Assembly: GCA_004321905.1 (NCBI GenBank)
Contig: SCQF01000023.1
Span: 62,001-126,000, forward strand
Reading direction: 5' to 3'
DNA length: 64,000 bases
From: Verrucomicrobiota bacterium
Lineage (GTDB): Bacteria > Verrucomicrobiota > Kiritimatiellia > CAIQIC01
Under the pieces are notes generated by a model, which had not been told where the DNA came from, ran no database searches, and saw nothing but the letters and a program-made list of their open reading frames with translations. Both the position numbers and the translations under genes were made by a program. Position 1 is the stretch's first letter; every line of letters starts with the position of its first letter. Positions 6,439 through 64,000 of this stretch are shown piece after piece.

Positions 6439-6774
6439 ATGTCCATCTCGCAAGCCACCTGCCAACAATGCGGCGCCGCCTGCTGCCGCTGGTCCGGCCA
6501 TGTGCTGCTAACGGACACCGATATCAGCGCGTTGGCGCACCACTTGGGCCTGACGGAAGACGAATTCATCCAGCGCCATACCAAGTTGGCCACCAACCGC
6601 GCCCAGCTCAGTCTACAGGAACAAGCCGACGGCGCGTGCTGCTTCCTCGACCCTGACCATACCTGCCGCGTTTATGCGGCACGTCCGCAACAATGCCGCG
6701 ACTTCCCGCGCGGCTGGCGCGTCGCCGGCTGCCCGGCGACCGATTTCCAAGCCTTGGAAAAATCACACGCCTGA
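6439..6774 (+). CDS. YkgJ-family Cys-cluster protein
   Basis: A 111-residue protein with the Cys pattern of the YkgJ family (putative Zn/Fe-chelating domain): TCQQCGAACC near the N-terminus and CCFLDPDHTCRVYAARPQQCRDFP later. Its exact function is unknown. The last residues (DFQALEKSHA) are encoded by a copy of the TTTCCAA-N3-TTGGAAA palindrome at 6744-6760, so the C-terminus appears to end inside the repeat. It starts 97 bp after ilvH. The stretch between, 6342-6438, has GTAG-headed hairpin-like sequence and no gene. The ribosome site is weak. Confidence 0.8.
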   Translation: MSISQATCQQCGAACCRWSGHVLLTDTDISALAHHLGLTEDEFIQRHTKLATNRAQLSLQEQADGACCFLDPDHTCRVYAARPQQCRDFPRGWRVAGCPATDFQALEKSHA

Positions 6775-6792
6775 ATTTCCAAGGCTTGGAAA
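6744..6792. repeat. Palindrome pair, family TTTCCAA-N3-TTGGAAA (32-bp phase)
   Basis: TTTCCAAGCCTTGGAAA at 6744-6760 and TTTCCAAGGCTTGGAAA at 6776-6792, start to start exactly 32 bp. The first copy lies in the ykgJ-like reading frame. The second directly abuts the -35 box of the thi promoter. Confidence 0.95.
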
Positions 6793-9070: not shown

Positions 9071-9119
9071 ATTCCAAAGCTTGGAAAAATGATCGTCGTC
9101 ATTTTCCAAGCCTTGGAAA
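9071..9119. repeat. Palindrome pair, 32-bp phase, between convergent thiH and metA
   Basis: ATTCCAAAGCTTGGAAA at 9071-9087 and TTTCCAAGCCTTGGAAA at 9103-9119. The spacer (AATGATCGTCGTCAT) is itself partly self-complementary, so the whole unit can fold as one long hairpin. It ends 4 bp from the metA stop codon. Confidence 0.92.
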
Positions 9120-10960: not shown

Positions 10961-11888
10961 GCCGCCCTTTCGGGGCTTGTTCTTCCTTTGATTCAACCTA
11001 GGGCTGCGCCCTAGGCTTCGTTCCCTCGCCCCTTCGGGGCGGCTCTACGTTTGTCTTCAATTTTCCCTGCAATCCAGCAAGGAGTTTTTATTTTTCACTG
11101 TCTTTGTTGGGCCAATTCTTTTCTATCACTTACGCCTTGGGCTTTGTTCATTCGCCCCTTCGAGGCTATCCACTCCAATTAATTCCATATTTTGGAATAC
11201 CTGCAAGCATCAGGGCTTGCGGGCGACACCGCGCTGTTTCATATCCGCAGCCCCAACGGGGGCAGCTGGGACCAAGCCTAGGGCACAGCCCTAGGCTTGG
11301 ATGATCCCCGCTCGCAAAGCCCTGAAAGGGCGGCGGGAGCTTAGTCCCATACATAGCGTTCATCAAACTCCAAACCTGTCTTCTTGAAAAACCGTCGCAG
11401 TTCGTCCTGAAAAGGTTCAACGCGATGGTGCTCTTCCTGTTGCCGCACATATTCCAAAATCGCAGGCAGACGCGAGGCAGAAACCGAGAAAGCTCCATAG
11501 CCTGCTTGCCAATGAAAACTCCGATAACCGATGCCTTGAGTCTTGAGCCACTTAGACGAAGACGTTTTCACATCTTCCACAACATGGGCCAAAGCAAGAT
11601 TCTTCGACAGACGAAAGACCAGATGAACATGGTCACAAACCGAGCCGACGCCAAGCATAGGGCACTCTACCTGTCGTAAGATTCCTCCCAGATAGCTATG
11701 CAGGTGCTCACGATCTTCGCTTCGGAGAACAGGCTCACGATTTTTTGCCGAGAAAATCAGGTGGACATAAAGCTGGGCCAAGGATTGTGGCATTTGAATT
11801 TCTACCGCCCTTTCAGGGCTTATCCTTCATTCTTCCTATTCAGCCTAGGGCTGCGCCCTAGGCTTTGCTCCTTAGCCCTTTTGGGGCC
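10961..11888. mobile_element. RAYT transposase unit with flanking palindrome clusters
   Basis: Three palindrome clusters surround the transposase gene. Cluster 1 (10961-11043) has CCGCCCTTTCGGGGC, CCTAGGGCTGCGCCCTAGG and CGCCCCTTCGGGGCG. Cluster 3 (11804-11888) has the same order and orientation. Cluster 2 (11274-11331) is inverted, with AAGCCTAGGGCACAGCCC then GCCCTGAAAGGGC. A solitary CGCCCCTTCGAGGC lies at 11153. This is the BIME-like setting expected of REP-associated transposases. Outside the clusters, 11044-11340 holds nothing recognisable. Confidence 0.75.
11341..11793 (-). CDS. REP-associated tyrosine transposase (IS200-like Y1 family)
   Basis: A 150-residue single-strand DNA transposase of the IS200/TnpA-REP type. 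The HUH metal site is DHVHLVF, and the likely catalytic Tyr is in WQAGYGAFSVS. The start MPQSLAQLYVHLIFSAKNR is characteristic. RAYTs are usually single-copy domesticated enzymes linked to the REP palindromes around them, as seen here. There are no terminal inverted repeats or accessory TnpB. Confidence 0.88.
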   Translation of the reverse strand: MPQSLAQLYVHLIFSAKNREPVLRSEDREHLHSYLGGILRQVECPMLGVGSVCDHVHLVFRLSKNLALAHVVEDVKTSSSKWLKTQGIGYRSFHWQAGYGAFSVSASRLPAILEYVRQQEEHHRVEPFQDELRRFFKKTGLEFDERYVWD

Positions 11889-13998: not shown

Positions 13999-16389
13999 TT
14001 ACGGGGCCGCAAGTTTTGTGCCTGTGATCCTGAAAAGTACGGGACGTTCATCCGGTCCGGAGTCGATCAGGCGTCCATCCGGAAGCTCCGCCCGGATGAG
14101 AGGATAGCGCCGGGCTGGAGGCGGCAGTTTGCGCGTATAATCGAACCGGAAGTCGTTGATGAGATCGGCCAGCGTCACATCGCTTGAGTTCCGGATGATG
14201 AACTTTCCGGTCTTCGTGAAAAATCCCGGCCCGCCGTAGCCGGCAACCAGAATATTCGATGAATCCGAAACGCGGAGGATCGTCGAGTATCCTTCGTTCT
14301 TAATGCCGTAGATGGCAATGTTGTGCGCATTTTTCATTTCCACCTCGGCCAGGCCGCAACAGTATTGGAGGTGTGCGTGATAGATGGAAAACGGGCCGCC
14401 GGTGTTTTCAATCAGAATACGGCGGCTGTTCGGGCCGTGCAGCCGTCCGTCGAGGGCATAGAACGGATACCAGCCGCCCGCGCCGTGACCGTGCACGCGG
14501 TAGAGCGGCCAGTCCGGCGTGCCGCCGGTGTCGTTTTTCGTGTAGAAATCGTCATGGGGTTTCTGCGCCCCGGGGACATTGTGCCTGACCCCGTTCATGT
14601 ATTCGCTCAAGGGGTTGACCTGTTCCCAGGTCCAGTTGAGCCAGGGTCGAAGCCCGGCGGCGAGCGGCACCAGTTCGTTTTCGGTGTAACCCGTAATCGA
14701 GTTCACACTGCGGAGCAGAGATCTGCCGCCGCACATCCAGTCCAGCACGGAAGCGGCCTTCACATCCTCGCGCGGCATAAAGACGCTGAAGAAGGCAAGC
14801 TGTGTCGCCGCATCTGCCGTATCGGCGGTGCGGAGCGCCGGCTGCGGCTTCGCGGGATCGTTGAAATCGCCGCCCTCGACCAGAACGGGGCAGATCATCG
14901 AATACGACGGACTGATGCCGATGAGCTGTGTGCGGGGCTTTAACTGCAACGTTTTGGAAATACGGTAAGCGCCTTTCGGCAGAAACAGCGCCTGATTTTC
15001 GTCAATCGCACGCTGCAGGGCGGCAGTATCGTCGGCCTTGCCGTCACCCTTGGCGCAATATGGAGCGTCCTTGACATTAATGACGCCCGGCTGGTTCCAC
15101 GCCGGAAACGCGGTATCGTCCCACAAGATGTGTCGCGTGCGAAGATCGGCGGGCGGCGCGGCCTCGGCCACCACCTGGCTGACGATGCCGTTGGTTTTGA
15201 CGCCGTCGCTAAAGATCGAGGCCGGACCCTTGTCGTAATCAAACGATGCGGCCAGTTCGACGACATGATTCCATCCGCCGGAAGCAGCCGGTGTCACCCC
15301 GCCATGCTGACTTGAAACCAAAATCGGCCCGGCGCTGCGAACCCATGTGTTGCGCAAGTAGGCGGCGCTTTTTGCATTGATCGCCGGGACCGGATCCTTG
15401 CCGGAAGCGCAATCAATCCGGCAATCCACCAGCGAAATACTGCCATCGTTGGCCCCCGTGGAGCGCACGGCGGCCGCATGATCAGGCAGTTCGAACTCGC
15501 AACCGACCAGCGTCAGAGAACCCCGCTGCTGGTAGTGGATCGCGACCTCACGCTGGCCGCTGAAGCGGCAGCCGACCAGCGTGGAACTCGGCTCGACCGA
15601 GTTCAGCATGGCACCGATCTGTCCGCCCCGAACCGTCAGGTTGAAAACCGCGCCGCCGCTTCCCGGAGCGCCCAGCAGACCGGTGTAACCGTCGCCCGCT
15701 TCCAGCGTGCAGTCCTGAATCGTGGAGCCTTCGGCGGCTCCGAAAGACACCGCCGCCGCGCCGGGATTGCCGGAACCGATGCGGACATCAATCCCGTAAA
15801 GCGTCTGATGGTATCCCGTCTGCGGAACATCGCGCCGCAGCGGGGCTTCCGGTTTTTCGCGGCTCCACGCTCTGGAATAAAAATCGAGAACACGCTTGGG
15901 TCTGGCCGGGTTATCAAAGCCCGGTGAGTTTGGCGCCAGCACGATGCACGGGCGCCGGCTTCCCTGGCGCTCGCCGATCAGCACGCACGGCCACGTTTCG
16001 GTGAACGGCAGGTACTTGTTGTTCGGAGTGCGCTCGTCCGACCACCCGCCCGGACAGGGGATCGTATCGCTGACGGTGTAGGCGCCGAGCGGAAACCAGA
16101 CCGCGAGTTTATGATGCCGGACGAAGAACACCGCATCGGCAATCGCTTTGGTGGAATCCTTGACTCCGGATGGATCGGCGCTGAACGGAGGTTTGGTGAC
16201 GTCGATGAATCCCGTGCGCAGCAGCGTCTGCTCCGGCAGCGCGTTCAGGGCCGCCACATCATCAACATTGATGCCCAGCGGGTCGTCCGTCCGGAACAGC
16301 GCGGAAGCCGCTGCGCCGGCGGCCGGCATTGCGCCCGGCGAAGCCAGCAACAGAGCGGCGAACAAAGACAGCCGGATTTGTGTTTTCAT
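13999..16389 (-). CDS. Secreted right-handed beta-helix protein (pectate-lyase-like, two repeats)
   Basis: A 796-residue exported protein, probably a polysaccharide lyase or hydrolase. A signal peptide (LFAALLLASPGAMPAAGA) is followed by two copies of the pectate-lyase-superfamily entry motif: DVTKPPFSADPSGVKDSTKA near residue 65 and GVINVKDAPYCAKGDGKADD near residue 430, each with a following LPKGAY/FPLGAY strand. This tandem arrangement resembles GH55-type double beta-helices. The start overlaps the GH78 stop by ATGA, so the two are coupled. Substrate and catalytic residues cannot be fixed by eye. Confidence 0.8.
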   Translation of the reverse strand: MKTQIRLSLFAALLLASPGAMPAAGAAASALFRTDDPLGINVDDVAALNALPEQTLLRTGFIDVTKPPFSADPSGVKDSTKAIADAVFFVRHHKLAVWFPLGAYTVSDTIPCPGGWSDERTPNNKYLPFTETWPCVLIGERQGSRRPCIVLAPNSPGFDNPARPKRVLDFYSRAWSREKPEAPLRRDVPQTGYHQTLYGIDVRIGSGNPGAAAVSFGAAEGSTIQDCTLEAGDGYTGLLGAPGSGGAVFNLTVRGGQIGAMLNSVEPSSTLVGCRFSGQREVAIHYQQRGSLTLVGCEFELPDHAAAVRSTGANDGSISLVDCRIDCASGKDPVPAINAKSAAYLRNTWVRSAGPILVSSQHGGVTPAASGGWNHVVELAASFDYDKGPASIFSDGVKTNGIVSQVVAEAAPPADLRTRHILWDDTAFPAWNQPGVINVKDAPYCAKGDGKADDTAALQRAIDENQALFLPKGAYRISKTLQLKPRTQLIGISPSYSMICPVLVEGGDFNDPAKPQPALRTADTADAATQLAFFSVFMPREDVKAASVLDWMCGGRSLLRSVNSITGYTENELVPLAAGLRPWLNWTWEQVNPLSEYMNGVRHNVPGAQKPHDDFYTKNDTGGTPDWPLYRVHGHGAGGWYPFYALDGRLHGPNSRRILIENTGGPFSIYHAHLQYCCGLAEVEMKNAHNIAIYGIKNEGYSTILRVSDSSNILVAGYGGPGFFTKTGKFIIRNSSDVTLADLINDFRFDYTRKLPPPARRYPLIRAELPDGRLIDSGPDERPVLFRITGTKLAAP

Positions 16390-19033: not shown

Positions 19034-19216
19034 CTATGTGCGCAGCAGCGCCTGCTCCGGCAGCGTGTTCAGGGCCGCCACATCATCAACATTGATACCC
19101 AGCGGGTCGTCCGTCCGGAACGGCGCGGAAGCCGCTGTGCCGGCGGCCGGTATGGTACTCGCCAGAACAAGCAGCCAAGCAGGAAGAAATATAATAGAGT
19201 GGAAATTCATTTTCAT
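19034..19216 (-). pseudogene. Truncated duplicate of the beta-helix enzyme's 5' end
   Basis: Sixty codons (MKMNFHS.. to ALLRT, then TAG) that match the signal peptide and first domain start of the 13999-16389 protein, including FRTDDPLGINVDDVAALN. Over 113 bp (19038-19150 against 16214-16326) the DNA differs at only five positions, all transitions. The frame stops exactly where the full gene continues with GFIDVTK. It has a ribosome site (AGGAAC) and could be translated, but it is the stump of a second copy. Confidence 0.85.
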
Positions 19217-20100: not shown

Positions 20101-20149
20101 TGAAACCTGAAATTTGAAACCTGAACCCTGAAACCTGAAACTTGAAAGC
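20101..20149. repeat. Seven tandem 7-bp repeats (TGAAACC) before ruvA
   Basis: Seven consecutive heptamers: TGAAACC, TGAAATT, TGAAACC, TGAACCC, TGAAACC, TGAAACT, TGAAAGC. They fill the space between ruvA and the lipoprotein gene, where the ruvA ribosome site should be. Confidence 0.9.
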
Positions 20150-20155
20150 GGAAGC

Positions 20156-23160: not shown

Positions 23161-23244
23161 CTTCTTGTGGGCGGGAGCTCCAGCTCCCGCGCAACACAAC
23201 ATAGGGCGATCAACGCGGGAGCTGGAGCTCCCGCCCACAAGAAG
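23161..23244. repeat. REP-like perfect inverted repeat, 31-bp arms
   Basis: Arms 23161-23191 and 23214-23244 are perfect complements, each holding CTTGTGGGCGGGAGCTCCAG and then CTCCCGCG. Each arm is itself near-palindromic, and the head is GTGG. A close relative is inside thiDE (54883-54962). The gene-free interval 23069-23373 otherwise shows no coding signal. Confidence 0.93.
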
Positions 23245-27341: not shown

Positions 27342-27390
27342 TTTCCAAGGGTTGGAAAACTTGCCTGTTTGATTTTCCAAACCTTGGAAA
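27342..27390. repeat. Palindrome pair, 32-bp phase
   Basis: TTTCCAAGGGTTGGAAA at 27342 and TTTCCAAACCTTGGAAA at 27374, between dmeF and the DUF2339 gene. The central triplets differ while the 7-bp arms are intact. Confidence 0.94.
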
Positions 27391-38596: not shown

Positions 38597-38645
38597 TTTC
38601 CAAGGCTTGGAAAACCGGAACATCACCTTTTCCAAAGGTTGGAAA
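38597..38645. repeat. Palindrome pair, 32-bp phase, at the pyrD start
   Basis: TTTCCAAGGCTTGGAAA at 38597 and TTTCCAAAGGTTGGAAA at 38629. The second ends 5 bp before the pyrD ATG and places the only Shine-Dalgarno-like AAAGG in its loop. Confidence 0.94.
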
Positions 38646-41803: not shown

Positions 41804-41820
41804 TTTCCAAGGCTTGGAAA
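41804..41820. repeat. Single palindrome between convergent pgpA and malQ
   Basis: A perfect TTTCCAAGGCTTGGAAA that occupies nearly the whole 22-bp space between two convergent stop codons. Confidence 0.93.
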
Positions 41821-46141: not shown

Positions 46142-46190
46142 TTTCCAAGGTTTGGAAAAACAACTCCTTCCGTTTTCCAAGGCTTGGAAA
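46142..46190. repeat. Palindrome pair, 32-bp phase, between divergent greA and GH5
   Basis: TTTCCAAGGTTTGGAAA at 46142 and TTTCCAAGGCTTGGAAA at 46174, in the divergent promoter region 46057-46217. Confidence 0.95.
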
Positions 46191-49036: not shown

Positions 49037-49085
49037 CTCCCAAGGTTTAGAAAAGCTGTCCTGTTCCTTTTCCAAGCCTTGGAAA
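49037..49085. repeat. Palindrome pair, 32-bp phase (first copy worn)
   Basis: CTCCCAAGGTTTAGAAA at 49037 (three mismatches) and TTTCCAAGCCTTGGAAA at 49069. The register is kept although the first copy has decayed. Confidence 0.85.
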
Positions 49086-51588: not shown

Positions 51589-51637
51589 TTTCCGAGGGTC
51601 GGAAAAATCACCATTCCACTTTTCCACGCCTTGGAAA
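51589..51637. repeat. Palindrome pair, 32-bp phase, with compensatory change
   Basis: TTTCCGAGGGTCGGAAA at 51589 and TTTCCACGCCTTGGAAA at 51621. In the first, A-T at arm position 6 is replaced by a G-C pair on both sides, so the symmetry is kept. The second directly abuts the znuB stop. Confidence 0.94.
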
Positions 51638-54251: not shown

Positions 54252-55802
54252 CTACAAACCTTGCTGCCACCGGCAAACTCGCGCAACGGGATCAGGCGCA
54301 TTCACGATATCGCCAATCACCGCAAAACCACGGGCACCCGCCACGCGCAAATCCGCGACATGTTCTGGAGTCAGTCCGCCGATGGCGACGACCGGTGCAG
54401 ACGCGAGTCTCGCCAATCGTCGAAAACCAGCCAATCCCAGCGGCATATGCGCGAGCGTCTTTGAAGCCGTTGCAAATACCGGTCCGATGGCGATGTAACT
54501 GGGCCGATATGCGGCGGCAACGGCCAGTTCAAAATAATTGTGCGTACTGATGCCGAGCCGCACACCGGCGCGCGCCAATGCCGGCAAATCTGCGCCGGCC
54601 AAATCATCCTGCCCCAGATGTACGCCATACGCACCATGCTTCAGCGCCAATTCCCAAGCGTCGTTGATGAACAGCCGCGCGTCGTAACGTCGCGCGATTT
54701 CAATTGCGGAACGAATTTCGTTTTCCAACACCGTCCCGGTCAAATTTTTAGCGCGGAGTTGAATGGTCGTGACGCCCAAAGGTAACAATTTTTCCAACCA
54801 CGCCGCGCGATCCACGATGGGATAAAAACCAACCGGTTGTGGGCCACAGTCTGGAAAACCCGCCGACGTAACGGCGGTGCGTCTTGTGGGCGGGAGTTCC
54901 AACTCCCGCGTCTGGTGTTGGATGGGTTGGGTTTCGCGGGAGCTGGAACTCCCGCCCACAAGAGCTTTGCTGCAGAAAACCATCGGCAAATCCGCCGGCG
55001 TCTCTGGCCAACCGCGATGCGCCAGCGGGCCATGTCCCTGCCCCACATCTTCGCCAAGCCGCAGCCCTTGATTGAGATAGGCCTTGCCGATCACGAGCGC
55101 GTCCGGCAAGGAATGGCCCAGCGCGCGCGCCGCGGCAATGGCCGAAGCCAACGTACAGCCCGTGCCGTGGGTGTGCCGGACATTCTGCCGCGGACTCGTC
55201 AGCCAGAACGACTGCCGACCATCGCTGAAATAATCTGCACTGAACTCGCCGGTACCGTGTCCGCCTTTGACCAGCACGGCGCGCGCGCCGTACCGCAATA
55301 ATTCCGCAGCAGCGGCGGGAATATTTTCCAAGGCTTGGAAATCCGGCCCCAACAGTTTTCCAAGCTCTGGAACATTGGGCGTGACGAGGTCGGCGCGCGG
55401 CAGAATCCGTTCACGCAGCAACCGCACGCCCTCTGCATCGAGCAGTGGCACACCGCCGGTGGAAGCGAGCACCGGATCACAAACGACAAATGCGTCGGTC
55501 GTGGCGAGAAAATCAGCGACGACGCGGACTTGCGCGGCGCTGCCCAACATGCCGAGCTTGATGGCAACGGGCGGCAGGTCGGCGGCCAAATGCGCCACTT
55601 GCTCACGCAATAGATCGGGCGCGACCGGCGCGACGCGAAAAACACCGGTGGTATTCTGCACGGTGAGCGCACTGATGATGGTGCAGCCATAGACTTCCAA
55701 GCCTTGGAAAGTCTTGAGATCGGCCTGTATCCCTGCCCCACTACCGGGATCGCTGCCGGCGATGCTCCAGACAAGCGGACGATGTCCGTGGTCATTTGTC
55801 AT
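54252..55802 (-). CDS. thiDE: ThiD-ThiE fusion: HMP-phosphate kinase / thiamin-phosphate synthase
   Basis: A 516-residue fusion. Residues about 1-265 are ThiD (WSIAGSDPGSGAGIQADLKT, LVKGGHGTGE, HTHGTGCTLASAI), which phosphorylates hydroxymethylpyrimidine. Residues about 325-516 are ThiE (GVTTIQLRAKN, YGVHLGQDDL, YIAIGPVFATASK), which joins pyrimidine and thiazole. The linker contains VGGSSSSRETQPIQ and onward, encoded by a REP-like inverted repeat (54883-54962) read in frame. Two 17-bp palindromes also overlap the ThiD part. It starts 3 bp after pabBC. Confidence 0.95.
   Translation of the reverse strand: MTNDHGHRPLVWSIAGSDPGSGAGIQADLKTFQGLEVYGCTIISALTVQNTTGVFRVAPVAPDLLREQVAHLAADLPPVAIKLGMLGSAAQVRVVADFLATTDAFVVCDPVLASTGGVPLLDAEGVRLLRERILPRADLVTPNVPELGKLLGPDFQALENIPAAAAELLRYGARAVLVKGGHGTGEFSADYFSDGRQSFWLTSPRQNVRHTHGTGCTLASAIAAARALGHSLPDALVIGKAYLNQGLRLGEDVGQGHGPLAHRGWPETPADLPMVFCSKALVGGSSSSRETQPIQHQTRELELPPTRRTAVTSAGFPDCGPQPVGFYPIVDRAAWLEKLLPLGVTTIQLRAKNLTGTVLENEIRSAIEIARRYDARLFINDAWELALKHGAYGVHLGQDDLAGADLPALARAGVRLGISTHNYFELAVAAAYRPSYIAIGPVFATASKTLAHMPLGLAGFRRLARLASAPVVAIGGLTPEHVADLRVAGARGFAVIGDIVNAPDPVARVCRWQQGL
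54883..54962. repeat. REP-like inverted repeat inserted in thiDE
   Basis: Arms 54883-54910 and 54935-54962 are complementary with one mismatch, and close to the element at 23161. It is an 80-bp unit read as part of the ThiD-ThiE linker. Confidence 0.92.
55325..55373. repeat. Palindrome pair, 32-bp phase, within the thiD coding region
   Basis: TTTCCAAGGCTTGGAAA at 55325 and TTTCCAAGCTCTGGAAC at 55357. They encode LGKLLGPDFQALEN in a place where ThiD normally has coding sequence of about the same length. Confidence 0.85.
55694..55710. repeat. Single palindrome-like site in thiD
   Basis: CTTCCAAGCCTTGGAAA, encoding KTFQGLEVYG of the conserved ThiD N-terminus. It may be a chance match or a site formed in place. 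Confidence 0.5.
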
Positions 55803-55805
55803 TGG

Positions 55806-59352
<3,547 letters not shown>

Positions 59353-62429: not shown

Positions 62430-62477
62430 TTTCCAAGCCTTGGAAAATCGGCAAAAAACTCTTCCAACCCTTGGAAA
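62430..62477. repeat. Palindrome pair with 31-bp spacing
   Basis: TTTCCAAGCCTTGGAAA at 62430 and CTTCCAACCCTTGGAAA at 62461. This is the only pair not at 32 bp (31), between the kinase and panD. Confidence 0.9.
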
Positions 62478-63656: not shown

Positions 63657-63720
63657 AAGTAGCCATCCCGCGCTGTCGGGGGAGTTTTACCTGCCTCAAG
63701 CTTCCTGAAATCGCGTGATA

Positions 63721-64000
<280 letters not shown>

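Follow-up and report, generated by a model that had tools for sequence, protein, structure and literature searches.

A helically phased palindrome pair within thiD belongs to a chromosome-wide set of evenly spaced arrays in a Kiritimatiellia bacterium

HIP1 of cyanobacteria is a highly iterated palindrome that arises within genes by substitution, is mostly coding and is not known to form phased arrays. The sites of Noc, parS and matS are short dyads scattered over the chromosome, and the Noc site has a TTTCC...GGAAA look. Uptake sequences are reported to be significantly even in spacing and to concentrate in non-coding DNA and in coding regions that tolerate them (PMC1939737). REPs and the palindromic elements of Rickettsia are known within genes (PMC3733652), and Lrp-family regulators bind cooperatively to operator dyads that share a helix face, two or three turns apart (PMC2995911).

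Here we analysed a window of 64,000 nucleotides, the whole stretch of DNA under study, from a Kiritimatiellia genome of 2.53 Mb (G000), in which arrays of a short palindrome are found between genes and within thiD. Like the USS and DUS of Haemophilus and Neisseria, the arrays are chromosome-wide, even, enriched in non-coding DNA and set in tolerant coding positions by point change; however, USS/DUS are non-palindromic, do not form helix-phased arrays and occur about once per kb, and the arrays are not followed by ComEC across the class. The arrays share with REP/BIME and the Rickettsia elements a palindromic sequence, hundreds of copies, dimers, a location past stop codons and some copies in genes, but they show neither a GTAG/CGTC-type tag nor a conserved spacer and no link to RAYT counts, and their in-gene copies are largely due to substitution. 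Like Noc sites, parS and matS they are scattered short dyads, and the Noc site may look like their unit; however, they differ in sequence and symmetry, are far more numerous and form phased arrays. Unlike HIP1, they are mostly intergenic and phased. By analogy, the nearest mechanical model is provided by Lrp-like proteins, whose operators are dyads at two or three helical turns, comparable to the 22 and 31/32 bp of the arrays (period 10.4-10.7), although the arrays differ from them in their G/C-centred dyads, genome-wide evenness and lack of a phyletic link to Lrp counts. No papers on palindromes in this bacterial group were found in the open-access literature.

The unit is the dyad TTCCAAnSnTTGGAA (extended form TTTTCCAAnSnTTGGAAAA), present in arrays of two to seven. 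The window contains 28 sites at ≤3 mismatches, against 0 in ten shuffles, and the whole genome contains 435 exact 15-mers TTCCAAGSCTTGGAA, against 0 for the reversed pattern; therefore, the motif is not due to chance. In eleven clusters of the window the copies are spaced 31 or 32 bp. The features of the window are as follows, with no strand assigned unless given:

6744-6792: array of two, both copies perfect
9071-9119: array of two between convergent genes, 9 nt past a stop codon
12932-13012: array of three (spacings 32 and 32)
27342-27390: array of two, intergenic
38597-38645: array of two, intergenic
41804-41820: single perfect copy between convergent genes
46142-46190: array of two at a gene start, probably upstream of the true start
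49037-49085: array of two with a degenerate left copy
51589-51637: array of two between convergent genes, the closest intergenic array left of thiD
54252-55802, minus strand: ThiD-ThiE fusion (phosphomethylpyrimidine kinase and thiamine phosphate synthase), 516 aa, Pfam Phos_pyr_kin and TMP-TENI, which holds the palindrome pair
55325-55341: perfect 17-bp palindrome TTTCCAAGSCTTGGAAA / TTTCCAAGGCTTGGAAA in ThiD, 0 mismatches, minus-strand coding (D)FQALE
55357-55373: degenerate partner copy TTTCCAAGCTCTGGAAC in ThiD, 3 mismatches, coding VPELGK
55694-55710: single palindrome CTTCCAAGCCTTGGAAA in ThiD, only in the window's genome, coding TFQGLE, no indel
57206-57254: perfect pair (57206 and 57238) in a pabB-pabC fusion, still present in G001 and G002, decayed in G003
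62430-62477: array of two (31 bp) directly past a stop codon, the closest intergenic array right of thiD

Other repeats were observed in the window. Two 143-bp copies, 87% identical, lie in adjacent long ORFs (16214-16356 and 19038-19180), and a 14-bp unit, TGAAACCTGAAACT, forms a short tandem at 20101-20153. A second dispersed element, GCGGGAG...CTCCCGCCCACAAGA, is present at 23170-23242 and 54884-54963, where the latter copy is translated within the ThiD/ThiE linker. At 11437-11778 the minus strand encodes a REP-associated (Y1-type) transposase, which scores best among the Y1 matches of the genome and lies between CCTAGGGC palindromes at 10991-11887. A CRISPR-like array with the repeat GTTTCAATCCACGCGCCCACACGGGGCGCGACA occupies 63720-63950, and after it, on the same contig (C36, about 132.6-134.8 kb), a gene encoding a cas3-like helicase contains a palindrome pair.

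Residues 18-260 of the ThiD-ThiE fusion match positions 1-245 of the 246 of the Pfam profile, and the pair encodes the peptide VPELGK-LLGPD-FQALEN. The initial annotation had reported this pair and proposed that it arose by substitution in place, with an unchanged number of residues between TPN and KGGH, and that selection acts on the DNA within the gene. Both copies were found where it had placed them, with a start-to-start distance of 32 bp. The window's ThiD has 35 residues from TPN to KGGH, the same as order-level relatives and nearly all aligned ThiDs of other families of the order and class (one has 34), and it aligns residue for residue with motif-less orthologues, without gaps or insertion at the pair. 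The loop between TPN and KGGH is longer in the sister genus (G004 and G005), and the ThiD of the congener G003 has 15 additional residues directly downstream of the motif. The mismatches of the copy at 55357-55373 fall on the Val and Glu codons of TPNxPE, whose Glu is kept in 15 of 15 aligned ThiDs. At 55694, the window's genome shows FQGLE where its relatives show MHGLG, LHGLG or similar, also in a gap-free alignment. A mobile-unit insertion was considered as the origin of the thiD pair and is excluded by the alignment.

The codon bias towards the palindrome that the initial annotation had suggested looking for was analysed by synonymous resampling with the codon usage of the genome. Both copies together have 3 mismatches, against a mean of 11, and none of 200,000 draws was as low. 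The pair is kept in the congener G001 (2+2 mismatches, 0/50,000) and, in a weaker form, in the congener G002 (6+2 mismatches, P=0.008), while in G003 it has decayed and the peptide relic PELGKLLGPDFHGMDE remains, encoded by other codons. The codons at the thiD pair are much nearer the palindrome than synonymous choice allows. Neither an insertion nor identical codons in relatives without the palindrome elsewhere, which would have refuted the proposal, was found, and selection on DNA is supported, with the proviso that a drive by biased uptake would mimic it.

The thiD pair is a small part of a larger pattern, as most arrays of the window's genome are intergenic. Among the other in-gene copies, the pabB pair was not reached in 50,000 synonymous resamplings in G000, G001 and G002 alike. 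Orthologues of ligA and of a Gfo-type oxidoreductase align gap-free at the in-gene pair, and hemW and pabB have similar lengths to their sister-genus orthologues. The murC gene has two units in G000 and three in G001 and G002 (L088, L089, L081), with ten more residues; judging from these sequences, substitution in place does not hold for all genes, since murC gains residues. It is also an observation from murC that the number of units can change within a coding region. In the nearly array-free G004, the only exact close pair (L149, 1501-1547) is in a TrpF-like ORF, apparently as extra sequence. Proteins from 510 kb of G000 contain 24 FQxLE peptides, against 1.4 expected and none of the reversed peptide, and 20 of the 24 use the palindromic codons (chance 0.039 each).

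Array spacings correspond to whole helical turns (22, 31/32, 52/53, 63, 83, 94, 105 and 126 bp, mostly 31/32). In G000 and G001 they concentrate at 31/32 bp, and in G001 arrays 31 and 32 frequently alternate, giving 63, 94 and 126; G009 shows arrays of two to seven with spacings of 22, 30/31, 52/53, 83 and 105. The best period was 10.6 bp in G000, 10.45 in G001, 10.7 in G058, which belongs to another family, and 10.4 in G009, and the phasing in these four genomes reached a mean cosine of 0.85-0.96, against a maximum of 0.36 for random distances. The arms are almost invariant and the spacers are not conserved. The centre base of exact-arm sites is G or C in 170 of 175 sites of G000, 71 of 72 of G001 and 53 of 53 at other-family loci, in either orientation, which suggests a base pair on the dyad and not a loop base.

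Placement was analysed in draft MAGs, parts of six of which were read at length. Gene calls come from a simple, unverified codon model (510 kb of G000 and 257 kb of G001), on which the nulls for evenness depend, and G001 and G002 were compared by orthologue search, as the first stretches shared too little sequence for synteny. Although random positions in G000 are coding in 81% of cases, 84% of its multi-copy clusters are intergenic, and arrays are a median of 10-11 nt from the neighbouring stop codon. In this placement analysis, which covers G000 and G001, array density per kb between convergent genes is about twice that of tandem or divergent regions; arrays are also frequent in divergent intergenic regions, and in G000 and G001 gene ends are favoured over gene starts. 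Intergenic arrays account for 42 of 43 in 140 kb of G058, 8 of 10 in stretches of G062 and 13 of 14 in stretches of G009; for the remaining positive genomes only counts or one to few loci were available and placement is not established. Arrays occupy about 38-47% (depending on the call set) of the intergenic regions of ≥50 bp in G000 and 56% in G058.

In G000, G001 and G058 there is one array about every 3-5 kb, mostly between genes. Arrays are more even than randomly chosen intergenic regions: the coefficient of variation of array spacing, compared with a null stratified by intergenic type, was 0.75 against 0.86 in G000 (P=0.03), 0.56 against 0.84 in G001 (0/2000) and 0.50 against 0.79 in G058 (0/2000). 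The evenness of pairs was not significant in the first 510 kb of G000 alone (P=0.11) and became clear with more sequence, a better null and other genomes; the stretches of G062 and G009 held too few arrays for this analysis, which covers only the other three genomes.

Pairs within genes are distant from intergenic ones. Over the first 510 kb of G000, the 14 internal pairs in genes are 3.2 kb from the nearest intergenic pair, against 1.5 kb for random coding positions (P=3e-4). Fresh contigs of G000, with the test fixed beforehand, gave 3.5 against 1.2 kb (P=0.001), and all sequence read from G000 gave 3.4 against 1.4 kb to the nearest intergenic array (P=1e-6). The effect was weaker in all sequence read from G001 (rank test P=0.018; permuting the medians, P=0.105). 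In both genomes, every in-gene pair tested is more than 1.2 kb away from the closest intergenic pair; some of these pairs occupy one common gap and are not fully independent. Between 51.6 and 62.4 kb, over 10.8 kb, no intergenic array occurs, and the thiD and pabB pairs both lie in this interval.

The reading we favour, tentatively and with a little less than even confidence, is that the chromosome is organised by a dimeric DNA-binding protein, as yet unidentified, whose sites are the arrays. It is favoured by the helical phasing, the G/C dyad centre, the invariant arms, the evenness, the filling of gaps by in-gene pairs, and the orthologous pairs kept despite codon freedom. We infer that the dimer would bind neighbouring dyads cooperatively, so that each array lies on one helix face, and that the regular set of complexes may organise the chromosome, either by folding or as boundaries against transcription or supercoiling at gene ends. 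The selected quantity would be the spacing of arrays along the chromosome; where intergenic arrays are distant, pairs are written into coding sequence, mostly by substitution, in G000 and more weakly in G001, and the thiD pair would be one of the two in-gene arrays that bridge the 10.8-kb stretch. Phasing, symmetry, evenness and codon constraint are observations in the genomes named above; the protein and its architectural role are inferred. Several points weigh against this role: no binder was identified, arrays are missing from close relatives, gap filling is weaker in G001, evenness and gap filling are also expected from accumulation driven by uptake, and the location past stop codons with the enrichment between convergent genes could reflect a function at 3' ends instead.

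The main rival, which we consider unlikely, is a DNA-uptake signal, where a competence machinery prefers the arrays, and biased uptake with recombination (molecular drive) builds them up in non-coding and tolerant coding places. It explains the evenness, the gap filling and the changes in place comparably well: the evenness and region bias reported for uptake sequences (PMC1939737) match the arrays of G000, G001 and G058, and the filling of gaps and the substitutions in place within genes fit it. Furthermore, in the window's family, ComEC is present in the array-rich G000, G001 and G002 and was not found in G003, with few and decayed arrays, nor in G004 and G005. However, most genomes, array-bearing and array-free, have ComEC, and it is present with only 0-2 pairs in G108, G112, G116, G118, G059 and G063. 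Known uptake sequences are not palindromic, the arrays are less dense (one in roughly 3-5 kb, where USS occur about every 1 kb), and in Haemophilus a second site within 100 bp gives no detectable gain in uptake, which leaves phased arrays unexplained.

An architectural role or uptake fits better than REP/RAYT elements or RNA hairpins. That the pair acts as a 17-bp hairpin in mRNA, ending or stabilising transcripts, appears improbable. The mean fold energy of pairs is about -22 kcal/mol, and the location just 3' of genes and the two-fold density between convergent genes are compatible with such a hairpin, as is the excess of pairs in G000 whose two centre bases are complementary (75 of 104, against 58 expected). 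However, this complementarity is absent in G001, and about four fifths of the other-family pairs listed have centres in the same orientation (hand count). No compensatory change between arms was detected genome-wide, which, together with the centre-base orientation, argues for double-stranded DNA rather than an RNA hairpin as the recognised form. The flank tables show only T before and A after the palindrome, with no U-tract, and intrinsic-terminator-like hairpins are not depleted at array places. Arrays of three, five and seven, helical spacing, and arrays in divergent regions and within genes are also unexpected for an RNA element. The right copy of the G002 thiD, TTTCCAGGGCCTGGAAA, looks like a compensatory arm change, but such changes show no genome-wide excess.

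Likewise improbable is a REP/BIME-like mobile repeat, spread by a RAYT-type transposase and settling past stop codons, with in-gene copies as tolerated insertions. High copy number, dimers and location past stop codons in G000 (median 11 nt) agree with it, in-gene REPs and Rickettsia elements are precedented (PMC3733652), Y1 transposases exist in G000, and murC has two or three units depending on the species. However, in-gene pairs are largely not insertions, as in thiD, ligA, the Gfo-type oxidoreductase and hemW (murC being the exception), there is no conserved spacer and no GTAG or CGTC tetranucleotide as a conserved tag at the palindrome end, Y1 transposases are equally common in array-free genomes (14 matches in G008, 6 in G005), and neither strict helical phasing nor evenness would be expected. 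Operators of a single transcription factor in an ordinary regulon would have the dyad and the cooperative two- or three-turn spacing typical of Lrp-like regulators (PMC2995911), but are very improbable, as the arrays are too many and wrongly placed, given the occupied share of intergenic regions in G000 and G058, the gene-end preference in G000 and G001 and the in-gene copies, and Lrp presence does not follow them.

A candidate for the DNA-binding protein was sought by phyletic pattern, and none emerged. Counts of Lrp, ParB-type HTH, Y1 transposase and ComEC fail to distinguish array-bearing from array-free genomes: of the genomes searched for an Lrp-type domain, all 20 with arrays have one, as do 17 of the 20 without, and array genomes have no additional ParB/Noc-type protein, with mostly one ParB-type HTH in either case. 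As for autoregulation, the genes flanking the pairs of single-pair genomes have no obvious common feature.

Of the 346 genomes of the class, 70, belonging to about 15 families, match the pattern TTCCAAnnnTTGGAA-N15..18-TTCCAAnnnTTGGAA, up to 1231 times (control matches 0); outside the class, the phylum is almost free of it, with two matches in one of about 97 genomes. The distribution is patchy: 145-178 pairs in genus g6 of family f4, against none in g5, g7 and g10, and 0-84 within g50, where G109, G110 and G113 have arrays and G108, G116 and G118 only 0-2 pairs. Since arrays are missing from closely related genera and species, whatever role they play is not shared by all members even of one genus. 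G003, the largest of the congeners, has only 46 pairs, fewer than any other of them; its thiD pair is decayed and ComEC had no match, and the arrays may be declining there. Three contigs of a viral collection (IMG/VR, L180-L183), which may be phages of array-bearing hosts or host DNA, contain an exact close pair.

These results point towards chromosome-wide marking by a system not yet described. It is possible, although we give this less confidence than the architectural reading, that it is a lineage-restricted form of chromosome metering, in which phased dyad arrays read by a protein are selected every 3-5 kb, with codons rewritten in place where intergenic sites are distant, and the whole system is gained and lost between close relatives. 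Under an architectural or an uptake reading, many FQxLE, FPxLGK and SKxWK peptides of these proteomes would be by-products of DNA constraint and not of protein function. If the arrays are an uptake signal, it would be palindromic and phased, in a lineage for which we know of none. If their role is architectural, part of a bacterial class would have evenly set chromosome-organising sites, bent codons included, that can be read from sequence, which would allow a direct test of what sets the scale of bacterial chromosome units.
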